A stretch of 7,699 nucleotides of DNA from the NCBI GenBank assembly GCA_029979405.1, contig JAPOHM010000062.1, positions 1 to 7,699 of the forward strand. The letters run 5' to 3'. A model generated the notes under the pieces. It was not told the origin of the DNA and searched no databases. It worked only from the letters and a program-made list of their open reading frames with translations. Positions 1 to 7,699 of the stretch are shown one piece after another; position 1 is the stretch's first letter; each line of letters begins with the position of its first letter. Both the position numbers and the translations under genes were made by a program. Origin of the DNA: Methanobacteriota archaeon. GTDB taxonomy: Archaea > Thermoplasmatota > Poseidoniia > Poseidoniales > Poseidoniaceae.

Positions 1-15
1 GAATTGGTGACTGAC

Positions 16-24
16 CTGATCATG
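16..24 (+). promoter_or_regulatory. CTGATCATG start element, copy 1
   Basis: This contains the ATG of the 45-aa ORF. TGATC can pair with the GATCA of the conserved 16S rRNA 3' end (GGATCACCTCCT), and its position directly before ATG is where the tail of an extended Shine-Dalgarno GGAGGTGATC would fall. The following ~33 nt are shared with copies 2 and 3. Confidence 0.6.
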
Positions 25-159
25 TCAAGCGTTAGCAAGACTATGAGAGAGAGAATAGCAAACTATTTTGAGAGATTTTGTTATTGGATGGCAACTAGAA
101 TATTCAGATTGCCGGAAGCACCCGCTGGAGAAAGACTGTTGGCAGGAGAGGATATTTGA
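22..159 (+). CDS. Small 45-aa protein of unknown function
   Basis: The ORF starts at the ATG of a CTGATCATG element, the same signal found at the starts of three larger genes downstream, and ends with a TGA whose last base is the A of the next gene's ATG (TGATG). The product is about 45 aa, basic and aromatic in the middle (YFERFCYWMATRIF), with no clear signal peptide. Its first residues, MSSVSKTMRER, match MLSESETERDY and MSSESETKRER of the genes at 626 and 1800, at DNA level as well. The reading frame is open upstream to the window edge, so it could instead be the tail of a longer gene. The other two plus-strand frames have stops at 8-10 and 12-14, which would suit a preceding operon gene ending there. 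No function is recognised; that it is translated is inferred from the start element and the coupling to the next gene. Confidence 0.5.
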   Translation: MSSVSKTMRERIANYFERFCYWMATRIFRLPEAPAGERLLAGEDI

Positions 160-617
160 TGACAGAAAAAGGAGAATATACCTTAGAAGAAGCCAATGAA
201 GGCTTGAAAGATACAAAATATGACGAAAACGATTGCGGTCACGCATTCGTTGAAGTGAGAAGCTGGGTATGCGAGATATACGAGGATTCGTATGAAAAAG
301 GAGAACTAGGCTATACTGGGGCCGGAATGAATGGTGGAGCAACAGGAAGATACAGAAGTTTTGAGGATGTGATAAACGAATTCTCGAAGGACTGGGCTCT
401 TTCTAGCGACCCTACACATTGGAATATCTATTTCAATGGAACCAGATGGACACTAGAAACAGATAGACAAGTAGCAGACCATAGCGATAAACAGAACGGA
501 GGTTGGATGGAACCAACCAAAAAAGAAATCGAAGAATGGAAGAAAGGCGAATACAAGTTATACAACGAAAGATGGGTTGTTTATTGTAGGCGCTTGAGAA
601 TTATCGAACTCGATTGA
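159..617 (+). CDS. Hypothetical protein, 152 aa
   Basis: No family is recognised. The ATG at 159 overlaps the stop of the preceding small ORF (TGATG), which suggests translational coupling; a TTG at 156 is possible but less likely. A purine-rich GGAGAGGA at 145-152 lies about 7 nt upstream and can serve as ribosome binding site. This is the only gene of the block that lacks the CTGATCATG start. The protein is hydrophilic, rich in Glu, Lys, Trp and Tyr, with no membrane segment. It has a glycine-rich stretch at residues 51-63 (GYTGAGMNGGATG) and three cysteines (26, 38, 143) not arranged as a zinc site. The C-terminal half has regularly spaced aromatics (HWNIYFNG, RWTLE, GGWMEP, RWVVYCRR), suggesting a small beta-rich fold. 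The next gene starts 8 nt after its stop. Confidence 0.8.
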   Translation: MTEKGEYTLEEANEGLKDTKYDENDCGHAFVEVRSWVCEIYEDSYEKGELGYTGAGMNGGATGRYRSFEDVINEFSKDWALSSDPTHWNIYFNGTRWTLETDRQVADHSDKQNGGWMEPTKKEIEEWKKGEYKLYNERWVVYCRRLRIIELD

Positions 618-619
618 GC

Positions 620-628
620 CTGATCATG
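620..628 (+). promoter_or_regulatory. CTGATCATG start element, copy 2
   Basis: This contains the ATG of the DpdA-like gene, 8 nt after the previous stop. It is followed by the shared purine-rich codons TTA AGC GAG AGC GAG ACT. It decides for ATG 626 over the upstream TTG 614. Confidence 0.7.
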
Positions 629-1783
629 TTAAGCGAGAGCGAGACTGAGAGAGATTACCGCAATTTTGCAAGTGAGCAATGGCAATTGATTAATGATGAT
701 TGGAACCTTTCCAATCACACAGAATCAGTTTTAGTGACGATAGGCGGCAATAATATTGCCGATTGGCACAATAAAACATTTGAACGCTCAATCAAAGTAG
801 CGAAGGATTCTGGTGGATTTGCTTTGTTAATGAAGCCACAACTCGCAAAGAGTTTTGATTTAGATAGGCTCATCAGACAGCACAAATTAGTTGGTTACTA
901 CGACCACGACATTATTTTGTCAGCCGATTTTCCTATACCAAGAAATATGGGTCTTTCTGACGAAGAGATTAGATATCGACAGCAAAAGTCTGTAGATTGG
1001 TATAATCTCATGAAATCAGAAATCCCCCAGACAATTCCAGTAATACATGGAACAAATACAGAGGAATTTGAAAATCATATTGAAATGTATGGTCTAAAGG
1101 ACAAAGAAACAGTAGCAGTGGGGTCTAACTTGGCCCAATCTACGCCAAGAGTGTTAGGTCAAACAGGACACAAAATAGTTAGTAGAAGCATATTGTGGAA
1201 AACAATTAGAGAAATGATGTCTGTTATGAGAAAGCATGAATTTGATTCATTTCTACTTGGTGCTGGGGGAATGAGTGCTGCTCCAGAAGCGGCACTTCTC
1301 GGCACTAAATTTACAGACGCAACAAGCTGGAGGCTGAACGCATATCAATGGGCGTTATTTTGCCCGGAAAGGAGACAATATATCCATTGTGGAGATAAGA
1401 AAAACAATCTTGAGAAAGAATGGGTCGAAAATTACCTTAGAGAGTGCTTAGAAGACGAGAACTACCCTTTAGGTAGGAATCTAGCCGGAAACGACTACCG
1501 TAGTCTTATTGAAGCCCTACGGGGAGTAAATAGAACGGGAACAGAAGGCTCACGAGCACGACAGATTCACAATCTATATGTCCAGGAGAAAGATGCCGAG
1601 TGGATTAGGACATACGAAGACGATCCAGAAGGACTAGGTAAGGCTTTGATTCAACAGCACGAGTTGAACAGCGAGCAAGGCTGGAGAAACAGCGCAGCAA
1701 TCAAAAGAATACGAGGTCATTTAGATTCGATACGAGAATCAACCGTATCAGAAGATTTTGAATTGATATTTTCCTTGCTGTAA
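626..1783 (+). CDS. TGT-like base-exchange enzyme, probable DpdA-type DNA transglycosylase
   Basis: The 385-aa protein resembles the TIM-barrel catalytic domain of tRNA-guanine transglycosylases. Visible motifs in order: DSGGF at 61-65 (the Asp aligns with the conserved Asp of TGT DSGGFQ); SADFP at 99-103 (position of the second substrate-binding Asp); VIHG at 139-142; AVGSNL at 164-169 (equivalent of the AIGG loop); FLLGAGG at 209-215; and FTDATSWRLNA at 229-239, where D231 is the expected nucleophile. It lacks the PUA-type RNA-binding domain of archaeosine TGT. Its length and the D-A-T-S-W motif fit DpdA, the subfamily that inserts preQ0-type 7-deazaguanines into DNA in bacterial islands and viruses. 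That the substrate is DNA is inferred from family resemblance. The ATG at 626 is chosen because it lies in a CTGATCATG element; an upstream TTG at 614 would overlap the previous gene. No preQ0 synthesis genes are in the window, so they lie elsewhere or the host supplies the base. A tRNA-acting TGT paralogue is the alternative. Confidence 0.72.
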   Translation: MLSESETERDYRNFASEQWQLINDDWNLSNHTESVLVTIGGNNIADWHNKTFERSIKVAKDSGGFALLMKPQLAKSFDLDRLIRQHKLVGYYDHDIILSADFPIPRNMGLSDEEIRYRQQKSVDWYNLMKSEIPQTIPVIHGTNTEEFENHIEMYGLKDKETVAVGSNLAQSTPRVLGQTGHKIVSRSILWKTIREMMSVMRKHEFDSFLLGAGGMSAAPEAALLGTKFTDATSWRLNAYQWALFCPERRQYIHCGDKKNNLEKEWVENYLRECLEDENYPLGRNLAGNDYRSLIEALRGVNRTGTEGSRARQIHNLYVQEKDAEWIRTYEDDPEGLGKALIQQHELNSEQGWRNSAAIKRIRGHLDSIRESTVSEDFELIFSLL

Positions 1784-1793
1784 ATGCGAGACT

Positions 1794-1802
1794 CTGATCA
1801 TG
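1794..1802 (+). promoter_or_regulatory. CTGATCATG start element, copy 3
   Basis: This contains the ATG of the 201-aa gene. From the C of the 9-mer through codon 10 the match to copy 2 is 32 of 36 bases without gaps, although the two proteins are otherwise unrelated. Confidence 0.7.
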
Positions 1803-2405
1803 TCAAGCGAGAGCGAGACCAAGAGAGAGAGAAGATACAGGCCAGTAAAACTGCATTGCGGAGGCACTAACCTGATGGGCTACATTAGCCGAGGTGAAGA
1901 TGAACCAAGAACACGACACAATACCTGGAATGGGTGGGAATGTCCACTTCTTGATAGAGAACAGCTACTTGACTACATCGAACTCCAAAAATGGAGATTA
2001 TATGAGGATAGTTACGCAGATGAATGGACTTTCATAGAAGAAGACGATGAATGGGGATATGAGATATTCTCGAAAGATTATATGGAAAGTGAAAGATTCA
2101 TGTCCTCTGAGGTTGAAACTACAGACGGAAAAAAAATAGAAGTCGTAGGAACTCCATGCTATTGCTATGAATTAGGATGGGAGCCACAAGAAGGAACCTA
2201 CAATATGGAGGAATATAACAAGCAATTCCCACATGGAATAGAACTACACAGAGTCTTAAGGAACGGAGAATCGCTAATTGATTCAGGTTACAAGCCTACA
2301 AAGGATTTTATGAATATGGGTGTGAAAGAACTAAGACAAGAGATATTGGGTTCATTTGAACTTGATTACCTAGTGGAAAACGGATTCATTGAGAAAATCT
2401 CCTGA
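1800..2405 (+). CDS. Hypothetical protein, 201 aa, acidic, four cysteines
   Basis: No family is recognised. The start is the ATG of a CTGATCATG element, 16 nt after the preceding stop; its TGA stop forms the first bases of the next gene's CTGATCATG. The first residues, MSSESETKRERRYR, repeat the N-termini of the genes at 22 and 626, while the rest is unrelated to them. The protein is soluble and strongly acidic (EEDDEWGYE around 80-88), rich in Trp and Tyr, with no transmembrane segment. Cysteines at 20, 48, 120 and 122 could bind a metal but do not form a standard zinc finger. The last 35 residues (MGVKELRQEILGSFELDYLVENGFIEKIS) look like a small helical C-terminal region. Gene size, composition and packing are typical of accessory genes in viral early regions; that is context only. 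Confidence 0.8.
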   Translation: MSSESETKRERRYRPVKLHCGGTNLMGYISRGEDEPRTRHNTWNGWECPLLDREQLLDYIELQKWRLYEDSYADEWTFIEEDDEWGYEIFSKDYMESERFMSSEVETTDGKKIEVVGTPCYCYELGWEPQEGTYNMEEYNKQFPHGIELHRVLRNGESLIDSGYKPTKDFMNMGVKELRQEILGSFELDYLVENGFIEKIS

Positions 2406-2410
2406 TCATG
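2402..2410 (+). promoter_or_regulatory. CTGATCATG start element, copy 4
   Basis: This contains the ATG of the 378-aa zinc-motif gene. The TGA is at the same time the stop codon of the 201-aa gene, so the element joins termination and initiation. The shared purine-rich codons of copies 1-3 are absent here. Confidence 0.7.
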
Positions 2411-3544
2411 CAAAACTGTGAAAAATGCGCCAAGCCAATGAGTGATAAGTTATCACTCATTTATGGGCTTGGTCCAGAATGCAGAGAGAGTTTTAGCAAA
2501 ACCGTAGGTTATATGCCTTCATACAGTATTTGTCATAATCAACCAGTAGAATTTTCGTTTGTGAAATATGAAGAAATTGTTAATGAGATAGGGCGTTTTT
2601 ATGGCGTCGATATTGTAGCAACAATTAGTAATTTAAGCGAATATTGTTGTGATGATTGTTTCAATTATTACTCATTTTACATGAAGAGTAGAAACCCACC
2701 GTATGATTTTCGTCTGATGTCGGATGAGGAAGTCAATTTTTACTTTGATAGAAGTAGATTTTTGCTTCACAATTATGAAGTGATATTTCCCACAAAAAAT
2801 TTCGATGATGAGTCTTTTTCATATTACGAAGAAGCATGTGGGAATATGTTGAGATATTTAGACCATCACGACCGAACCAACATTAAACAGATATTCAGCT
2901 TTATGATGGATGACAAAGAAGAATTGGCCGAGCAAATGAATCACAACTTCGACATGGCTACATTGAGCGACAGTGACTCGATGATGGCAGAAATAATGGA
3001 ATTACTGGAAGATGTGATGACATTTGGTGATGGGCATTATATGGACAAAACCGTGATGGAGATATTCGAAGACAATTCAGATTACGGAATTTTCGATGGT
3101 TGTAATTGCCGAAAACACGGACAAGGCGCAAGCAAATGTGACTATTGCGACATTTTTTGGGGTGGTGGCTATTGGTTTGATTGTTGGCTAAGTCCAATAC
3201 CAGGAAGCAAGACAAAACGAATAACCGAAGCGGGATGGAACTTTGGTCTTACAATGGAATCTTATGAGAAAAGGCTTGCCGACATCGAGGAAGACGGCAT
3301 GGAAAGGCACTGGTCGAAATACAAAAGACCAATTTTGCCGATATGTCGTAAATCCAAGAAAAACACCAAAGAGTTCAAACCAACTACAGATGTAGAATGG
3401 AACACAAAAGAAAGGATAATCACTTCCGACAATGGTATGTTAGATGAGCTTCTGATGAAATTAGATGAAGAAAGCATAAAGCACTCATACTATGATTTCG
3501 TTTCGAACGCAAACACTCATACGCTTGACGACTTCTCGCACTAA
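2408..3544 (+). CDS. Cysteine-rich protein with N-terminal DUF6011-like zinc motif, 378 aa
   Basis: The N-terminus has the pattern C4-x2-C7, then a Ser-Leu-x3-Gly-Leu-Gly-Pro-x-C25 segment. This resembles the short DUF6011-type zinc motif (CxxC...S...GxGPxC) common in phage and actinobacterial proteins. Two more cysteine clusters follow: C80, C81, C84, and C232, C234, C244, C247 (CNC...CDYC), either of which could bind zinc. The middle is rich in aromatics and acidic residues (a helical stretch at 190-205); the tail after 300 is basic and then acidic. No catalytic motif is recognised. The ATG belongs to a CTGATCATG element whose TGA is also the stop of the previous gene, so translation is probably coupled. 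A strong inverted repeat (2430-2472) lies within codons 8-22, over the zinc motif. Function is unknown; nucleic-acid or protein binding through zinc sites is the only reasonable inference. Confidence 0.83.
   Translation: MQNCEKCAKPMSDKLSLIYGLGPECRESFSKTVGYMPSYSICHNQPVEFSFVKYEEIVNEIGRFYGVDIVATISNLSEYCCDDCFNYYSFYMKSRNPPYDFRLMSDEEVNFYFDRSRFLLHNYEVIFPTKNFDDESFSYYEEACGNMLRYLDHHDRTNIKQIFSFMMDDKEELAEQMNHNFDMATLSDSDSMMAEIMELLEDVMTFGDGHYMDKTVMEIFEDNSDYGIFDGCNCRKHGQGASKCDYCDIFWGGGYWFDCWLSPIPGSKTKRITEAGWNFGLTMESYEKRLADIEEDGMERHWSKYKRPILPICRKSKKNTKEFKPTTDVEWNTKERIITSDNGMLDELLMKLDEESIKHSYYDFVSNANTHTLDDFSH
2430..2472 (+). repeat. Long inverted repeat in the 5' coding region of the zinc-motif gene
   Basis: The arms are AATGAGTGATAA (2437-2448) and TTATCACTCATT (2450-2461), a perfect 12-bp inverted repeat around a single G. 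Outside these, CCAAGCC (2430-2436) pairs with GGCTTGG (2466-2472) after a 4-nt bulge, TATG, on the right side. That is 19 pairs in total; a real RNA hairpin would open the innermost ones to form a loop. It lies 20 nt after the start codon and encodes residues 8-22 of the 378-aa protein, between C7 and C25. There is no T run after it, so it does not look like a terminator. A translational control structure, an RNA processing site or a protein operator are possible. Confidence 0.75.
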
Positions 3545-3545
3545 C

Positions 3546-3845
3546 ATGGCGAGATATCAGGCGGCTACGGTTGGCCCACTATGGGCAGAAGCAGAACTGA
3601 TCATGGAATCGTGGGCCAAAAAATTGGCGGAATCACTTAATCCCCGATTATTAATGTCTATTCAAAGGGTTGATGGTGGCTATGAATGCACCATTTCAAC
3701 AGATATCAGAAGGCAACCAATGAATGAGGCCCATAGAAAAATCGCCAGCACAGCATCATCGTATGTAGGAGACTCCTTAGAAAACGCACTTACTGGTGCT
3801 ATATCGGCATACATTGATGTTGTAAACAACGAGACTCGCCAGTAG
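3546..3845 (+). CDS. Small hypothetical protein, 99 aa (or 80 aa from an internal start)
   Basis: No family is recognised. The extent given starts at an ATG one base after the previous stop, which suits the packing of this block, but no ribosome binding site precedes it. A second, in-frame ATG at 3603 lies in a perfect CTGATCATG, the signal used by four other genes of the block, and would give an 80-aa protein starting MESWAKKLAESL. Either or both may be used. The protein looks alpha/beta: an N-terminal helix, a probable strand pair (LLMSIQRVDGGYECTISTD), then helices to the C-terminus (KIASTASSYVGDSLENALTGAISAYIDVV). It has no membrane segment or metal motif. The TAG stop falls in the loop and start of the right arm of the first terminator hairpin, so this is the last gene of the transcription unit. 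Confidence 0.7.
   Translation: MARYQAATVGPLWAEAELIMESWAKKLAESLNPRLLMSIQRVDGGYECTISTDIRRQPMNEAHRKIASTASSYVGDSLENALTGAISAYIDVVNNETRQ
3597..3605 (+). promoter_or_regulatory. CTGATCATG element, copy 5 (possible true or internal start)
   Basis: The 9-mer is perfect and its ATG is in frame with the small gene annotated from 3546, 19 codons downstream of that start. It marks either the real start of an 80-aa product or a second internal start. The downstream shared codons of copies 1-3 are absent. Confidence 0.5.
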
Positions 3846-3861
3846 GCGAGTCCTTTTTTTT
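3833..3861 (+). terminator. Intrinsic terminator 1 (hairpin plus T8)
   Basis: A perfect 8-bp stem, GACTCGCC / GGCGAGTC, with loop AGTA, is followed by C and eight T. The stop codon of the small gene (TAG 3843-3845) is inside the hairpin. It ends the plus-strand block. Archaeal polymerases mostly need only the T run, so the strong hairpin is notable. Confidence 0.85.
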
Positions 3862-3929
3862 GGCAAATTGCAACTTTTTTGAACACCCTTCCAAAGCGGA
3901 AGGGGTTTTTTTTGGCGAATTGCAACTTT
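3854..3929 (+). repeat. Direct repeat pair following the two terminators
   Basis: Bases 3854-3877 and 3906-3929 are 24-bp direct repeats, 52 bp apart, differing at one base: T8, then GGC, then A or G, then AATTGCAACTTT. Because the preceding hairpin stems differ, the similarity beyond the T runs is not explained by terminator function. Shared use as a 3'-end processing or pausing signal, a protein site or a remnant of duplication are all possible. Confidence 0.7.
3886..3913 (+). terminator. Intrinsic terminator 2 (hairpin plus T8)
   Basis: A 7-bp stem, CCCTTCC / GGAAGGG, with loop AAAGC, is followed by G and eight T. It starts 24 nt after the T run of terminator 1 and has an unrelated stem, so it is a back-up terminator rather than a copy of the first hairpin. 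Confidence 0.82.
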
Positions 3930-3956
3930 CATACGGCAACAGCGTTTGGGCCGTGC

Positions 3957-4448
3957 ATGGCGAAAATGACATGGCCGCAATTTATGTCAGCGCACAAAGG
4001 AATGAAAAAGGAAGAAATCTCAGCCCTATGGGAAGAATTCAAACAGGGAACATACACAGTATCGGTATCTGGAAAAAGGCTCTTTCAGAAGTCAGTAGAA
4101 GAAGCGGAAAGGCCTCCAGAACAGATTGAGGCGCTTACTAATCAAGCTGTGGAAGAGATACAGCCCCCAGAGCCTCCTGTGGAGGAGATACAGCCCCCAG
4201 AGCCTCCTGTGGAGGAGATACAGCCCCCAGAGCCTCCTGTGGAAGAGATACAGCCTCCAGAGCCTCCTGTGGAGGAGATACAGCCTCCAGAGCCTCCTGT
4301 GGAAGAGATACAGCCTCCAGAGCCTCCTGTGGAGGAGATACAGCCTGTAGAGGCAATACCAGAACCAGCTAATACACCTCAACCAACAATGCAGAACGAA
4401 AAGTCCAACATCAAAGGTAGTGACTTAATCGGTTCAGGAATAATCTAA
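3957..4448 (+). CDS. Repeat protein with PEPP rod, 163 aa
   Basis: The product has a short folded-looking N-terminus (residues 1-50, with TWPQFMSAHKGMKKEEI...LWEEF), then six perfect copies of VEEIQPPEPP and the start of a seventh (about residues 65-130), then a short disordered tail. Such Glu/Pro repeats form stiff, extended, unstructured rods, comparable in composition to TonB-type linkers, so a tether or adaptor role is plausible but not shown. The N-terminus shares a W/F/G/W spacing with the C-terminus of the protein encoded at 6761-7345. The frame is open upstream to 3879, but that would read through the terminators, so ATG 3957 (or 3966) is preferred. No clear ribosome binding site or TATA box is seen in the 43 nt after the second terminator. 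The 3' end overlaps the opposing polymerase gene by 15 bp. Confidence 0.72.
   Translation: MAKMTWPQFMSAHKGMKKEEISALWEEFKQGTYTVSVSGKRLFQKSVEEAERPPEQIEALTNQAVEEIQPPEPPVEEIQPPEPPVEEIQPPEPPVEEIQPPEPPVEEIQPPEPPVEEIQPPEPPVEEIQPVEAIPEPANTPQPTMQNEKSNIKGSDLIGSGII
4149..4346 (+). repeat. 30-bp in-frame tandem repeat (VEEIQPPEPP)
   Basis: There are six full 30-bp units (4149-4328) and 18 bp of a seventh. They differ only at two synonymous positions: GAA/GAG in codon 2 and CCC/CCT in codon 6. In order the units read A-C, G-C, G-C, A-T, G-T, A-T, G-T, so the last four look like a duplicated 60-bp pair. All copies keep the frame. There are no spacers, so this is not a CRISPR array. Confidence 0.95.
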
Positions 4449-6722
4449 GGGTTCTAAATCAATCATTGACTTAGCATAATTAAGACGATTTATAGCTTCA
4501 CGGAGTTCACTTGAAATTTGTTGCATTTCGGAATCTTGCATGATTTCTTGAAATTGTTTTTTACGAATGTGTGCAATCACTCTGGAGGCCTTTGTGTAAT
4601 TCCTAATCTCATCAAAGTTAGGATTCAGTTCTGTTCCCTTTTGTAGCAATTGATTCTCAAGAAACCGGATTTCTGAATTTATCTCTGATATTTCATTTCC
4701 TAAATCAGCAAGTCCTTGTTTTTTGTAGGAGTTGTGTGGCGGGAGTGGCATTGGAGCATGGTCTTCAACCCATCCTACAAACTGTCTACTTTCAGGGTGC
4801 TTAAGGGGATCAGTAACTCCCATTAAAGTGTAATTTGGGATTTGTTGGAAAGTTGATTCGTATGCCAAGATAGACACAGCATCTCGATAGTGCTTGAAAG
4901 AACCATCGGGTTGCAAAATAGAGCGACTTCCAGCAGTAGCGGTCAAACCTGTGATAGCAGCCCTGGAAGGTTGTTGATGTAGTGGTATTTCCATCTTACA
5001 CAAATCGTCTGCATAGAGCATCAGATGTTTGATTGAAACCATGTTATCCTTACCAGCAACAGAGAAAATCGCCCTTCCAGACGCATCATTTCCTAATGTT
5101 TCAGGGTCTCTCGCCATTGTTGCATATAGATTGTTCAGAATAACGGTTCTTGCTGCCTCTATGCCTAACGCATGAAACACCATCAACGGATTATTACAAG
5201 ATGTTCTCATAAAATCAAACCTTTCATCACCATCAATCAAGGCATAGTAGCCACCGAACGATCTAGCCTTCGAGTCGAATACGATTTCAGGCCCAGAAAT
5301 ACTCCTTTTAGGATAAGCAGTCATAGACTCTCCAGGCAAGTTTGGCTTTGGAGCAAGTTCTCCGTTGCCAAATATACCAGATAACAAAATGTAATACTCT
5401 CCATCTCTGGCATTGAATGGAATCAAGCCATCATGGAAGAAAGTTGGCTCGTAATCACTTTCAACTTCTGGATCTTGATGACTGTATGCAACTAAATTTT
5501 GTAAGTCCTCGCCAGTAAATGAAGTAAGCTTATTCAAATCCGCAGAACCACCGGATGCCATCCTACTCTCGAACTCCTCAATAATCCGTTCTAATCGGCT
5601 CCTCGTTTCATCAAATACCATGCCCCCAGAACGAGCAGTCCAACTAGCGTCATCTGCGTAAGATGACTGTCCAACTTTCATAGGCGCTGCGTGGACACCT
5701 CTCCACCCTAAACCACACTCAACACAACAATGGGTGTCGCTAGACTTATCCTTAGCTCCAAATGTATAGCCGACAGCCGAGATTAAAGGCCAATACATTT
5801 CATCTTTATCTTGTAGCAGTATTGCCTCCCATTCCTCCCTTTTTTTCGTTACCCACCAGCCCATGTTTCCTTCGGGATCCTTTCCTTCCTCATCCCACAA
5901 AGAGAATTTTTTGATTCGGGTAGAACTGCCCCAAGTTAGGGTTTGCAAGGGAGTAAGGCAAGGAACTGGACATACCTCCAATACCGATATCTTATCTGCG
6001 AAATCAACCACCATTCTTTGACTCCATCTTGGGCCAAAGACACATACAATCTCTGAATCATCTCTTATTTCCATTCTATTGTCCGACCACATACCGGGAA
6101 ATTTGAACGGCGCACGGAATGATTCTGGGTCTTCTTGTTTCCAAGAATTAGAAAGTAAATCGTATAGGTCGTAAAGACCCACGCCCGGAAGTGGCTTGAA
6201 TACGATTTCCTTTGAATCAAGCTCTAAATTCAGTTTTTCCAAAATGCTATCGTAATCCTCACCGAATTCGTCGTAATCGTTTTGCACTACTTCAATACTG
6301 CAAATCTCAGACAATCTTTGCCTCATCAATCTGTTCGACAGACTAACAACGGAATCAAAACCGCTGAACTCTGGTTTCAATGCAAGTGCCATTGTAAATG
6401 ACTTCATACCAGCCAAAGAAGCGTTTTCATTCAAAATTGAAACAATGTCTGTGTTAGCATTGACTCCCGCATAATGAAAACTACGCATGATCGCTTGAGT
6501 TAGCGGTTCTCCTATGGAATGCGCCGCAATAACGCCAATGTTTGTGCCTGGAGAGACCTTACTACTTTCATAGGCTTGTAGCATCGAATCAAGAATTTTC
6601 TCGATTTGTTGTTCAGAGGGGTCTATCCCTCTTCTTTCCAATTCACTTGCTACAGCATAAAGGGAGGCATCAGGCACAGAAGAAAGGCCGCGCATCCTCT
6701 CCACTAAGTCAATGACTCCCAC
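4434..6722 (-). CDS. Divergent archaeal-type RNA polymerase subunit A'' homologue, 762 aa
   Basis: Residues 35-150 match the start of archaeal Rpo1C/A'': a helical lead-in, PGTNIGVIAAHSIGEP (58-73), the trigger loop TQAIMRSFHYAGV (75-87, with Q76, M79, R80, F82, H83 at the functional positions), and MKSFTMALAL...LSEICSIEV (106-145). The C-terminal core also aligns: HALGIEAAR (517-525), VSIKHLMLYADDL (562-574), and SILAYESTF plus GVTDPL...FVG (617-650), whose G-D-L-K-V-G spacing fits the family pattern GEVDELK...IVG. Ordinary A'' is about 380-400 aa; this one carries about 350 extra residues between 150 and 500, with CPVPC (251-255) and CVEC (333-336) as a possible zinc site, and a helical, probably coiled-coil tail (672-755). 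It should form part of the polymerase active centre with A' and B, which are not in the window. The start is GTG 6722, directly after an in-frame stop; ATG 6695, preceded by GGAGAGG, would keep all conserved parts. It is the last gene of a minus-strand block. Confidence 0.85.
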   Translation of the reverse strand: MGVIDLVERMRGLSSVPDASLYAVASELERRGIDPSEQQIEKILDSMLQAYESSKVSPGTNIGVIAAHSIGEPLTQAIMRSFHYAGVNANTDIVSILNENASLAGMKSFTMALALKPEFSGFDSVVSLSNRLMRQRLSEICSIEVVQNDYDEFGEDYDSILEKLNLELDSKEIVFKPLPGVGLYDLYDLLSNSWKQEDPESFRAPFKFPGMWSDNRMEIRDDSEIVCVFGPRWSQRMVVDFADKISVLEVCPVPCLTPLQTLTWGSSTRIKKFSLWDEEGKDPEGNMGWWVTKKREEWEAILLQDKDEMYWPLISAVGYTFGAKDKSSDTHCCVECGLGWRGVHAAPMKVGQSSYADDASWTARSGGMVFDETRSRLERIIEEFESRMASGGSADLNKLTSFTGEDLQNLVAYSHQDPEVESDYEPTFFHDGLIPFNARDGEYYILLSGIFGNGELAPKPNLPGESMTAYPKRSISGPEIVFDSKARSFGGYYALIDGDERFDFMRTSCNNPLMVFHALGIEAARTVILNNLYATMARDPETLGNDASGRAIFSVAGKDNMVSIKHLMLYADDLCKMEIPLHQQPSRAAITGLTATAGSRSILQPDGSFKHYRDAVSILAYESTFQQIPNYTLMGVTDPLKHPESRQFVGWVEDHAPMPLPPHNSYKKQGLADLGNEISEINSEIRFLENQLLQKGTELNPNFDEIRNYTKASRVIAHIRKKQFQEIMQDSEMQQISSELREAINRLNYAKSMIDLEPLDYS

Positions 6723-6760
6723 GACTTACGATGCATGGGTTGGCGTATGAGGGTTGTTCT

Positions 6761-7345
6761 CTATGGAGGGGAACCTTCTATCCAATTTTTGATTTCAGCG
6801 GCCTTCGAGACACCGCCGCACATTTTCACGAAATCTGCCCACGAAATCTCTTTCGCCTTCCACGCATGGTAGCCATCGACCATTTCGATTGGAAATTTAT
6901 CTATTTCTTCGGAACCGGTCGAACCCTCTTCGTTTTTGCTCTCCTCTTGCTGGACATCAGCTTCGACCCCTTGTGCCTGAGAGGTGGTTATCTCTTCAAA
7001 CACTTTCGGTGCATCATACGCTAAATTAGTCATTGTAGGACTTGGATCTGCAATCATATTTTCAACTTGAGCAATTCGTCGTTCCAACCGCCCGATAGCT
7101 TCTGCGATAGCGTTGAACCCCTGTCCTGTGTCTATTGCGGTTTGATTTTGATTTTCAACTAATTGTCCGAGAGCGGGTAGCATCAGGTTTTCGATAGATG
7201 AATTCAAATTAGTAGAAGTCCTTTCGTCTAAGGCATCCACTAGCATTTCAAACCAAGGAGTAGGTTGCAACTGCTCCTCTTGGTTTTCAGTGACTTGACT
7301 ACTCTGTTCAACACGATCCATAAAGGCATCTTTCCAATCAGCCAT
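6761..7345 (-). CDS. Acidic coiled-coil protein with C-terminal W-F-G-W motif, 194 aa
   Basis: No family is recognised. The protein reads as helical N-terminal segments (WFEMLVDALDERTS at 31-44; IENLMLPALGQLV at 51-63), a probable short coiled coil at 76-98 (GFNAIAEAIGRLERRIAQVENMI), a low-complexity acidic linker at 120-150 rich in Gln, Glu and Ser, and a compact C-terminal helical segment at 157-192 (YHAWKAKEISWADF...GVSKAAEIKNWIE). The last part resembles, with identical spacing, the N-terminus of the repeat protein encoded at 3957. The start ATG at 7345 lies 24 nt after the stop of the upstream gene and is preceded by AGGTTC. The polymerase A'' homologue begins 38 nt downstream, so the two are probably co-transcribed. 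A scaffold or polymerase-associated role would fit the composition and position but is only a guess. Confidence 0.8.
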   Translation of the reverse strand: MADWKDAFMDRVEQSSQVTENQEEQLQPTPWFEMLVDALDERTSTNLNSSIENLMLPALGQLVENQNQTAIDTGQGFNAIAEAIGRLERRIAQVENMIADPSPTMTNLAYDAPKVFEEITTSQAQGVEADVQQEESKNEEGSTGSEEIDKFPIEMVDGYHAWKAKEISWADFVKMCGGVSKAAEIKNWIEGSPP

Positions 7346-7369
7346 GAACCTGCGAAGGCTCTCTCCCGT

Positions 7370-7699
7370 TTAGGGATTGCAGTTGCACAACCCATCTTCA
7401 AAAGAGATTGCCTTACAACACGAGGGGCAATAAGGCTCAGTTTGAGTGACGCCCATGAACCATAGTTCGTCGCCCCAAATAGATTTCACGAACTGGTCTA
7501 AATGAAATTGAGCAATATTGAGTCTATCCTCATCAGCCATGACTCTATCAAAACGACCAGAAAGTGCTTGCCTCGACAGGTCTTCTTTCACTATTGGCTC
7601 ATCGGAATCTAGTAAAACAATTCTTAGATATTCGAGCATGTCGGTAGCATCAAGCTTCAACAAAGACTCACTCAGTTTGCTAACATGAACGAAACCCCC
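7370..7699 (-). CDS. C-terminal part of a protein with zinc-ribbon-like end (cut by window edge)
   Basis: The frame is open to the right edge of the window, giving 109 codons; the true start is probably outside. Possible internal starts are TTG 7663 and ATG 7639. The visible part is mainly helical and acidic (DMLEYLRIVLLDSDEPIVKE, then ADEDRLNIAQFHLDQFVKSIWGDELWFMG). It ends in a cysteine cluster, CPSCC-x11-CNC, typical of a small zinc ribbon at an extreme C-terminus. It does not resemble the C-terminus of polymerase A' or B. It is followed after 24 nt by the coiled-coil gene and then by the A'' homologue on the same strand. Function is not recognised; the zinc ribbon and neighbourhood would allow a transcription accessory factor, but nothing specific shows this. 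Confidence 0.7.
   Translation of the reverse strand, partial: GGFVHVSKLSESLLKLDATDMLEYLRIVLLDSDEPIVKEDLSRQALSGRFDRVMADEDRLNIAQFHLDQFVKSIWGDELWFMGVTQTEPYCPSCCKAISFEDGLCNCNP

Follow-up and report, generated by a model that had tools for sequence, protein, structure and literature searches.

The largest subunit of archaeal RNA polymerase (RNAP) is split into two chains, A' and A'' (Rpo1C). Homologues of the large RNAP subunits are also borne by jumbo phages and nucleocytoplasmic viruses, whose multisubunit enzymes include the catalytic A' and B. For archaeal viruses, one review states that they encode no RNAP (PMC5569661), and a 2022 review reports no RNAP-subunit homologue except primase among more than 230 sequenced archaeal viruses (PMC9501531). 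Archaeal-virus proteins acting on host transcription include RIP/ORF145 of Acidianus two-tailed virus (ATV) and the TFB homologues of Italian rudiviruses, which are not RNAP large-subunit homologues. Here, we describe a diverged archaeal-type A'' encoded in a stretch of 7,699 nucleotides (hereafter the window; contig JAPOHM010000062.1 of assembly GCA_029979405.1, positions 1 to 7,699) and on two related IMG/VR records, G001 and G002, of a large virus-like element.

The window protein and its large relatives resemble cellular A'' (TIGR02389; PDB chains 7ok0_C and 8cro_C) in the N-terminal half of the trigger loop, in the LGIEAAR and HLMLxAD core and in the order of these parts from N to C terminus. 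They differ in their size (762-961 residues, as compared with about 390 in cells), in their insertions with conserved cysteines, in the absence of the GxPR segment, in not being encoded beside A' and in forming a separate branch. Like jumbo phages and nucleocytoplasmic viruses, the element carries a virus-borne large-subunit homologue, but only A'' was found in it. Among described Poseidoniales viruses, the Aoguangviridae (Magrovirales) and Marine Group II (MGII) clade 1 of Nishimura 2017 likely share its host and also have a sliding clamp, and clade 1 has an archaeal-type chaperonin; for clade 1, the comparison was made without its genome sizes or gene lists. Aoguangvirids measure 90-100 kb, whereas the element measures about 128 kb, has an orphan A'' and lacks a PF03237 terminase. 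B-family DNA polymerase is given as a feature of Magrovirales in PMC10768690; profile PF00136 for this enzyme matched neither G001 nor G002. A word search of a 2023 magrovirus paper found no mention of RNA polymerase.

On sequence grounds, the window protein is a true homologue of archaeal A'' and not a chance likeness. It matches Pfam RNA_pol_Rpb1_5 at 3e-16, with the best stretch at residues 53-91, and the NCBIfam A'' model TIGR02389 at 1e-21 in two stretches, although its 77.4 bits do not reach the equivalog threshold (curated cut-off 420.65). The three top chains of a PDB sequence search were Rpo1C/A'' (9e-12 to 2e-11); Rpo1C chains in PDB have 391-397 residues, about half the length of the window protein. 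By hhalign, 125 columns of the C-terminal core of a clade profile (A4, eight rows of the A'' family) align with cellular A'' (99.7%, E 1.5e-25), and the window protein contains the core motifs LGIEAAR, HLMLxAD and DPL. C-terminal residues such as R506, L519, G520, E522, A524, R525, H566, L569, D572, E622 and G635 do not vary across a 60-row alignment (A8) that combines 25 rows of the large-A'' clade with 35 cellular-type A''. An earlier note on this DNA, based on the sequence alone, had described an extremely diverged A'' of double size that keeps the trigger loop and the C-terminal core and lies outside an rpo operon. This description holds: an alignment with Rpo1C, on which the note had staked its reading, is obtained both for residues 58-87 and for the C-terminal core, and the nine open reading frames (ORFs) scanned in the window include no rpo-operon gene apart from A''.

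The trigger loop is where conservation is strongest. Its residues Q76, M79, R80, F82 and H83 stand at the positions first noted, and Q76, R80, F82, H83 and Y84-V87 are invariant in 60/60 rows; at position 79, the 31 rows inspected have either M or L. When clade conservation was computed by 30-residue blocks, the trigger-loop block ranked first (residues 61-90, mean identity 0.74, 24 rows). The invariance of trigger-loop residues, although all clade members but one (98%) share just 24-30% overall identity with the window protein, suggests that this part of the protein still works. The clade is further distinguished by large insertions relative to cellular A'' and by C251, C255, C333, C336, G339 and W340, all invariant in the 25 clade rows. 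The cellular-type rows, 35 in all, have gaps throughout the columns of the last five, and position 251 is K in 27 of them. The four invariant cysteines probably form a zinc site, a predicted property.

An initial homologue search returned six relatives. Five share 24-30% identity with the window A''; the sixth, at 98%, lies on contigs that reach 19 kb. Among the best 120 of 2654 hits of a profile search, 20 large proteins reach at least 433 bits, after which the score drops to 151. Together with P0001, P0004 and P0005, which came from the initial search alone, these make 23 large proteins of 762-961 residues. A tree built from 60 rows and 378 columns places a branch with 100/100 support between the 25 large rows (window, P0001-P0023 and G002) and the 35 of cellular type. 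The large A'' proteins are, by this sequence comparison, a discrete clade outside the sampled cellular-type A'', in line with the placement that the earlier note had envisaged. The cellular-type rows were hand-picked from 100 lower-scoring listed hits, many without organism name, and are not a balanced archaeal sample. Moreover, long branches meet between the two groups, the amino-acid composition of the window protein and P0001 is odd and the root is a midpoint, so that the tree does not settle the origin of the clade. Of the 25 clade rows, two are known to come from viral records by the IMG/VR classing (P0008, identical with the A'' of G001, and G002); the remainder are viral by clade only.

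A search of IMG/VR with alignment A1 yielded 11 loci, two of which carry a full-size A'': G001 (128,784 bp) and G002 (127,570 bp). The other nine were set aside, their match being confined to the trigger-loop region; L003 and L004 match PF04997 at about 1e-90 (L004 looks, by eye, like a eukaryotic giant virus), and in L005-L011 the A' and the B profiles are both positive. Exact terminal repeats of 123 bp in G001 and 77 bp in G002, together with the circular permutation of the two colinear records relative to each other, suggest that both are complete genomes. Matches at E 0.01 or better were obtained for 7/9 filtered window ORFs in G001 and for 5/9 in G002. The window is a piece of this large (~128 kb) virus-like element, the word 'virus' resting mainly on the IMG/VR classing. 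The proposed origin of the DNA, an archaeal mobile element that encodes some part of a multisubunit polymerase, thus finds support in two apparently complete, syntenic records on which no A' or B was found. Searches with the C-terminal alignment A5 found G001 alone in IMG/VR and nothing in GTDB contigs, P0002 and P0004 as queries found nothing in IMG/VR, and two other element genes retrieved G001 and G002 only.

The partner subunits seem to be truly missing from the element. Neither the A' profiles PF04997 and PF00623 nor the B profiles PF00562 and PF04563 matched G001 or G002, whereas PF04997, PF00623 and PF00562 run over all 11 loci detected A' in nine and B in seven, and all four profiles were positive in 14/14 control genomes. 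A six-frame search for the DxDGD metal motif found no copy in G001 and a single one in G002, where the frame has 85 codons. Terminal repeats and permutation make it unlikely that the missing A' or B is a truncation artefact. Both genomes encode a divergent TFB-like protein, at 116130-117080 in G001 (L027:16130-17080 (+)) and at 58114-59205 in G002 (L048:3114-4205 (+)). Their PF00382 scores, 18.6 and 23.0 bits, are below the cut-off of 23.6, and a profile of the pair retrieves TFIIB chains from 9e-4.

A second peculiarity of the element is a short motif that directly abuts start codons. In the window, CTGATC abuts ATG at 5/5 plus-strand sites, as compared with 0/1 on the opposite strand. CTGACC does so at 61 of 76 minus-strand sites in G001 (1.7 expected; opposite strand 1/13) and ACC[GA]CTC at 98 of 113 sites in G002 (opposite strand 0/4). 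The position of the motif is fixed, while its sequence differs by genome, with one form of 6-7 nt each. Motif-started genes are concentrated in unidirectional arrays on the minus strand (72-114.5 kb in G001, 11-57 kb in G002). Among mechanically called ORFs of at least 80 residues, they make up 48/64 within the array and 0/80 outside in G001, and 70/78 within and 2/80 outside in G002, the latter two just beyond the array edge as we set it. The stop codon of the preceding frame lies 6-13 nt ahead of the ATG at 40/61 sites in G001 and 66/98 in G002, so that the motif mostly fills the intergenic gap. Upstream AT content is nearly flat (0.57-0.64 in G001), without a clear TATA-like peak. The motif could be a leaderless initiator or, equally, a translation signal or an RNA-processing site; poxvirus TAAATG is a parallel for leaderless starts. 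Shine-Dalgarno pairing was not adopted, as there is no spacer and the G002 heptamer does not pair, by eye, with the 16S 3' end. A literature search on start-adjacent motifs, judged at listing level, gave no obvious match.

How could a lone A'' be of use to such an element? Since archaeal A'' is a separate chain, it is in principle exchangeable by a virus that encodes A'' alone. We tentatively favour the possibility that the element supplies a stand-alone A'', no other large RNAP subunit having been found, which would take the place of its host counterpart, assemble with A', B and the small subunits of the host and yield a working hybrid enzyme. The hybrid would bear the viral trigger loop, jaw and four-cysteine stretch and would favour viral templates, perhaps with the aid of the divergent TFB-like protein in promoter choice. 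Incorporation, catalytic activity and template preference are all inferred. A fuller version, in which the exchange amounts to a takeover and the hybrid and the viral TFB-like factor start at virus-specific signals, possibly the start-adjacent motif, seems to us unlikely as a whole.

Several observations weigh against this subunit exchange. The second trigger-loop helix begins with a GxPR segment in 35/35 cellular-type rows, and this segment occurs in 0/25 clade rows; its loss implies that the loop may fail to fold as in the active enzyme. Position 531 is N in all 25 clade rows and E in all 35 cellular-type rows. The best PDB chains for a structure model of the A'' (top six by Foldseek, top ten by VIA-align) are archaeal Rpo1C, but the model is weak (predicted local distance difference test, pLDDT, 59.6; mostly below 50 in the trigger loop), its Foldseek TM-scores are 0.2-0.5 with root-mean-square deviations of 12-19, and RNAP II chains follow closely by VIA Z (9.7 as compared with 9.9). 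The fold match is not independent either, as 35 of the 60 rows in the model's alignment are cellular-type A''. An earlier model from eight rows (pLDDT 49) was discarded. A six-frame search with PF00382 was positive in G001 only, and below cut-off. The window A'' as a query found no relative in the phage, plasmid or GTDB contig collections, nor in IMG/VR with the single sequence, and every statement on gene absence rests on two complete genomes. Catalytic use, which had been argued from the preserved trigger loop, remains putative: the N-terminal half is nearly invariant, but the GxPR half is lost in 25/25 rows. The pattern, with one half of the loop kept as if under selection and the other remodelled, favours an RNAP role and disfavours unchanged catalysis.

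The same loss of the GxPR half, together with the large insertions, would be in keeping with a viral A'' that is a mimic, binds host A'/B or assembly partners and leaves a dead or altered RNAP, shutting off host transcription. A viral inhibitor of archaeal RNAP is known (PMC5123050); ATV RIP achieves such a shut-off by a different route. A pure decoy would not need Q76, R80, F82 and H83, invariant at 24-30% identity, and the viral genes would still require some transcribing enzyme; we consider this explanation rather unlikely, if still worth serious attention. Alternatively, the hybrid RNAP may be a second polymerase form, made late or packaged and injected, that serves some genes only. The A'' gene indeed lies outside the motif-bearing unidirectional array and convergent with it, and jumbo phages have virion and non-virion RNAPs (PMC7598289). 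No late-promoter signal was identified, and we regard this form as unlikely. Reuse of the A'' fold outside transcription, for instance in nucleic-acid binding during replication or packaging, could account for the missing partner subunits, the extra cysteine pairs and the small neighbour genes without assigned function. We find it improbable, as the trigger loop is the most conserved block of the clade. It is more improbable still that the element encodes a complete RNAP of its own, with an A' and a B that have diverged beyond detection: A'' itself is very diverged and several large ORFs are unannotated, the longest in G001 (2989 residues) lying outside the Pfam/PHROGs scans, but the A'/B profiles that are silent on G001 and G002 respond to other viral records and no credible DxDGD was seen. 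Finally, a cellular contig or an assembly artefact is hardly credible; the window is a stretch and not a whole genome, but the same A'' neighbourhood occurs on two separate terminal-repeat records, contigs of as much as 19 kb carry a protein with 98% identity, and synteny with G001 and G002 likewise disfavours a chromosomal contig with this as its sole A''.

The hosts of the element are most likely Poseidoniales (Marine Group II) archaea, as suggested by its archaeal-type genes and by the Cpn60/TCP-1 chaperonin encoded in both G001 and G002. Among the best 120 of 1130 hits of the G001 chaperonin, the top organism-named ones are a Poseidoniaceae thermosome (35%), Thermoplasmatota (36%) and Euryarchaeota (35%), all ranking below 46 large-element-like relatives (42-100% identity). 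The element is apparently marine, chiefly because P0008 bears a Tara source label. Capsid and terminase genes, which the earlier note had suggested looking for on the contig, were not identified: PF03237 terminase matched neither genome and no capsid or terminase gene could be assigned with confidence, portal and capsid families not having been searched by name. Packaging may be of the FtsK/HerA kind rather than by terminase. The two genomes share an ATPase pair, of 254 residues at L023:7441-8205 (+) and 252 residues at L033:6118-6876 (+), 55% identical, with HerA as best PDB hit (E 0.006) and a partial match to phrog_2666, a profile that is also positive in 14/14 control genomes. The idea of a tailed virus was dropped, because the terminase hit is partial and three tail-protein hits of the product of G001 8064-10010 overlap one stretch (residues ~290-376), which we take for an Ig/Fn3-like domain.

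Table 1. Features of the window
Position	Strand	Feature	Remarks
16..21	(+)	CTGATC directly before ATG 22	
156..617	(+)	Gene 80% identical to G001 85908-86381	Weak AbiEii match in PADLOC (6.6e-5)
614..1783	(+)	Gene conserved in the element; ATG 626, which follows CTGATC, is the probable start	42% / 41% identical to G001 / G002 genes
620..625	(+)	CTGATC directly before ATG 626	
1794..1799	(+)	CTGATC directly before ATG 1800	
1800..2405	(+)	Conserved gene	G001 73% over 48 residues, G002 53% over 146 residues
2402..2407	(+)	CTGATC directly before ATG 2408	
2408-3544		ORF with weak match, 23-32 residues only	Synteny comparison
3597..3602	(+)	CTGATC directly before ATG 3603	Within ORF 3492-3845 and in its frame
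3879..4448	(+)	Gene convergent with A''	N-terminal WPQF...EISALW module in common with G001 gene 72060-72449, also convergent with A''
4434..6722	(-)	Diverged archaeal-type RNAP subunit A'' (Rpo1C), 762 residues	Called with a GTG start at 6722
4773..5216	(-)	C-terminal A'' core, residues 503-650	DFMRT, LGIEAAR, KHLMLYAD, DPL
5715..5972	(-)	Clade-specific stretch, putative zinc site	Cysteine pairs C251/C255 and C333/C336 (25/25 clade rows)
6462..6551	(-)	Trigger-loop block, residues 58-87	Q76, M79, R80, F82, H83 kept
6761..7345	(-)	Small gene directly upstream of A''	Match directly upstream of A'' in G001 and G002

Family scans of G001, which took in 103 of its 163 filtered ORFs, identified a PCNA-like clamp, DNA methyltransferases, glycosyltransferases, a serine recombinase, a RusA nuclease and a guanylate-kinase domain; Rfam found two tRNAs and nothing else on the window and six loci. 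The DpdA-like label once given to the window gene 614-1783 was not confirmed, since its family matches nothing in Pfam, PHROGs, NCBIfam or PADLOC and has no significant PDB hit. Members also occur at L025:14535-15668 and L047:3535-4665, with KDSGGF and LLGAGGM motifs that we take to be reminiscent of tRNA-guanine transglycosylase/DpdA, a likeness unconfirmed by any library searched. The gene convergent with A'' contains a 30-bp tandem repeat (6.7 copies, window 4147-4346) encoding a PPEPPVEEIQ repeat; a regular expression for its EISALW-type module gave three matches in all, and we claim no wide repeat family. A protein of 198-199 residues (L023:3377-3973, L033:943-1542), 75% identical between otherwise diverged genomes, is a candidate abundant virion protein; it has no match in PDB or the phage collection.

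Our searches for Rpo1C or RNA polymerase subunit A in connection with archaeal viruses found no paper, most subscription papers and preprints being outside their scope. A viral lineage with a lone A'' contradicts the statement of the 2022 review quoted above (PMC9501531). Takeover by exchange of a single catalytic-half subunit within the host RNAP is a strategy for which we found no description in the literature searched, mostly at listing level. The separate nature of the A'' chain in archaea makes the idea of an exchange directly accessible to tests with reconstituted archaeal RNAP, and these proteins, with their diverged trigger loop, would provide a natural experiment on which parts of the loop are essential.

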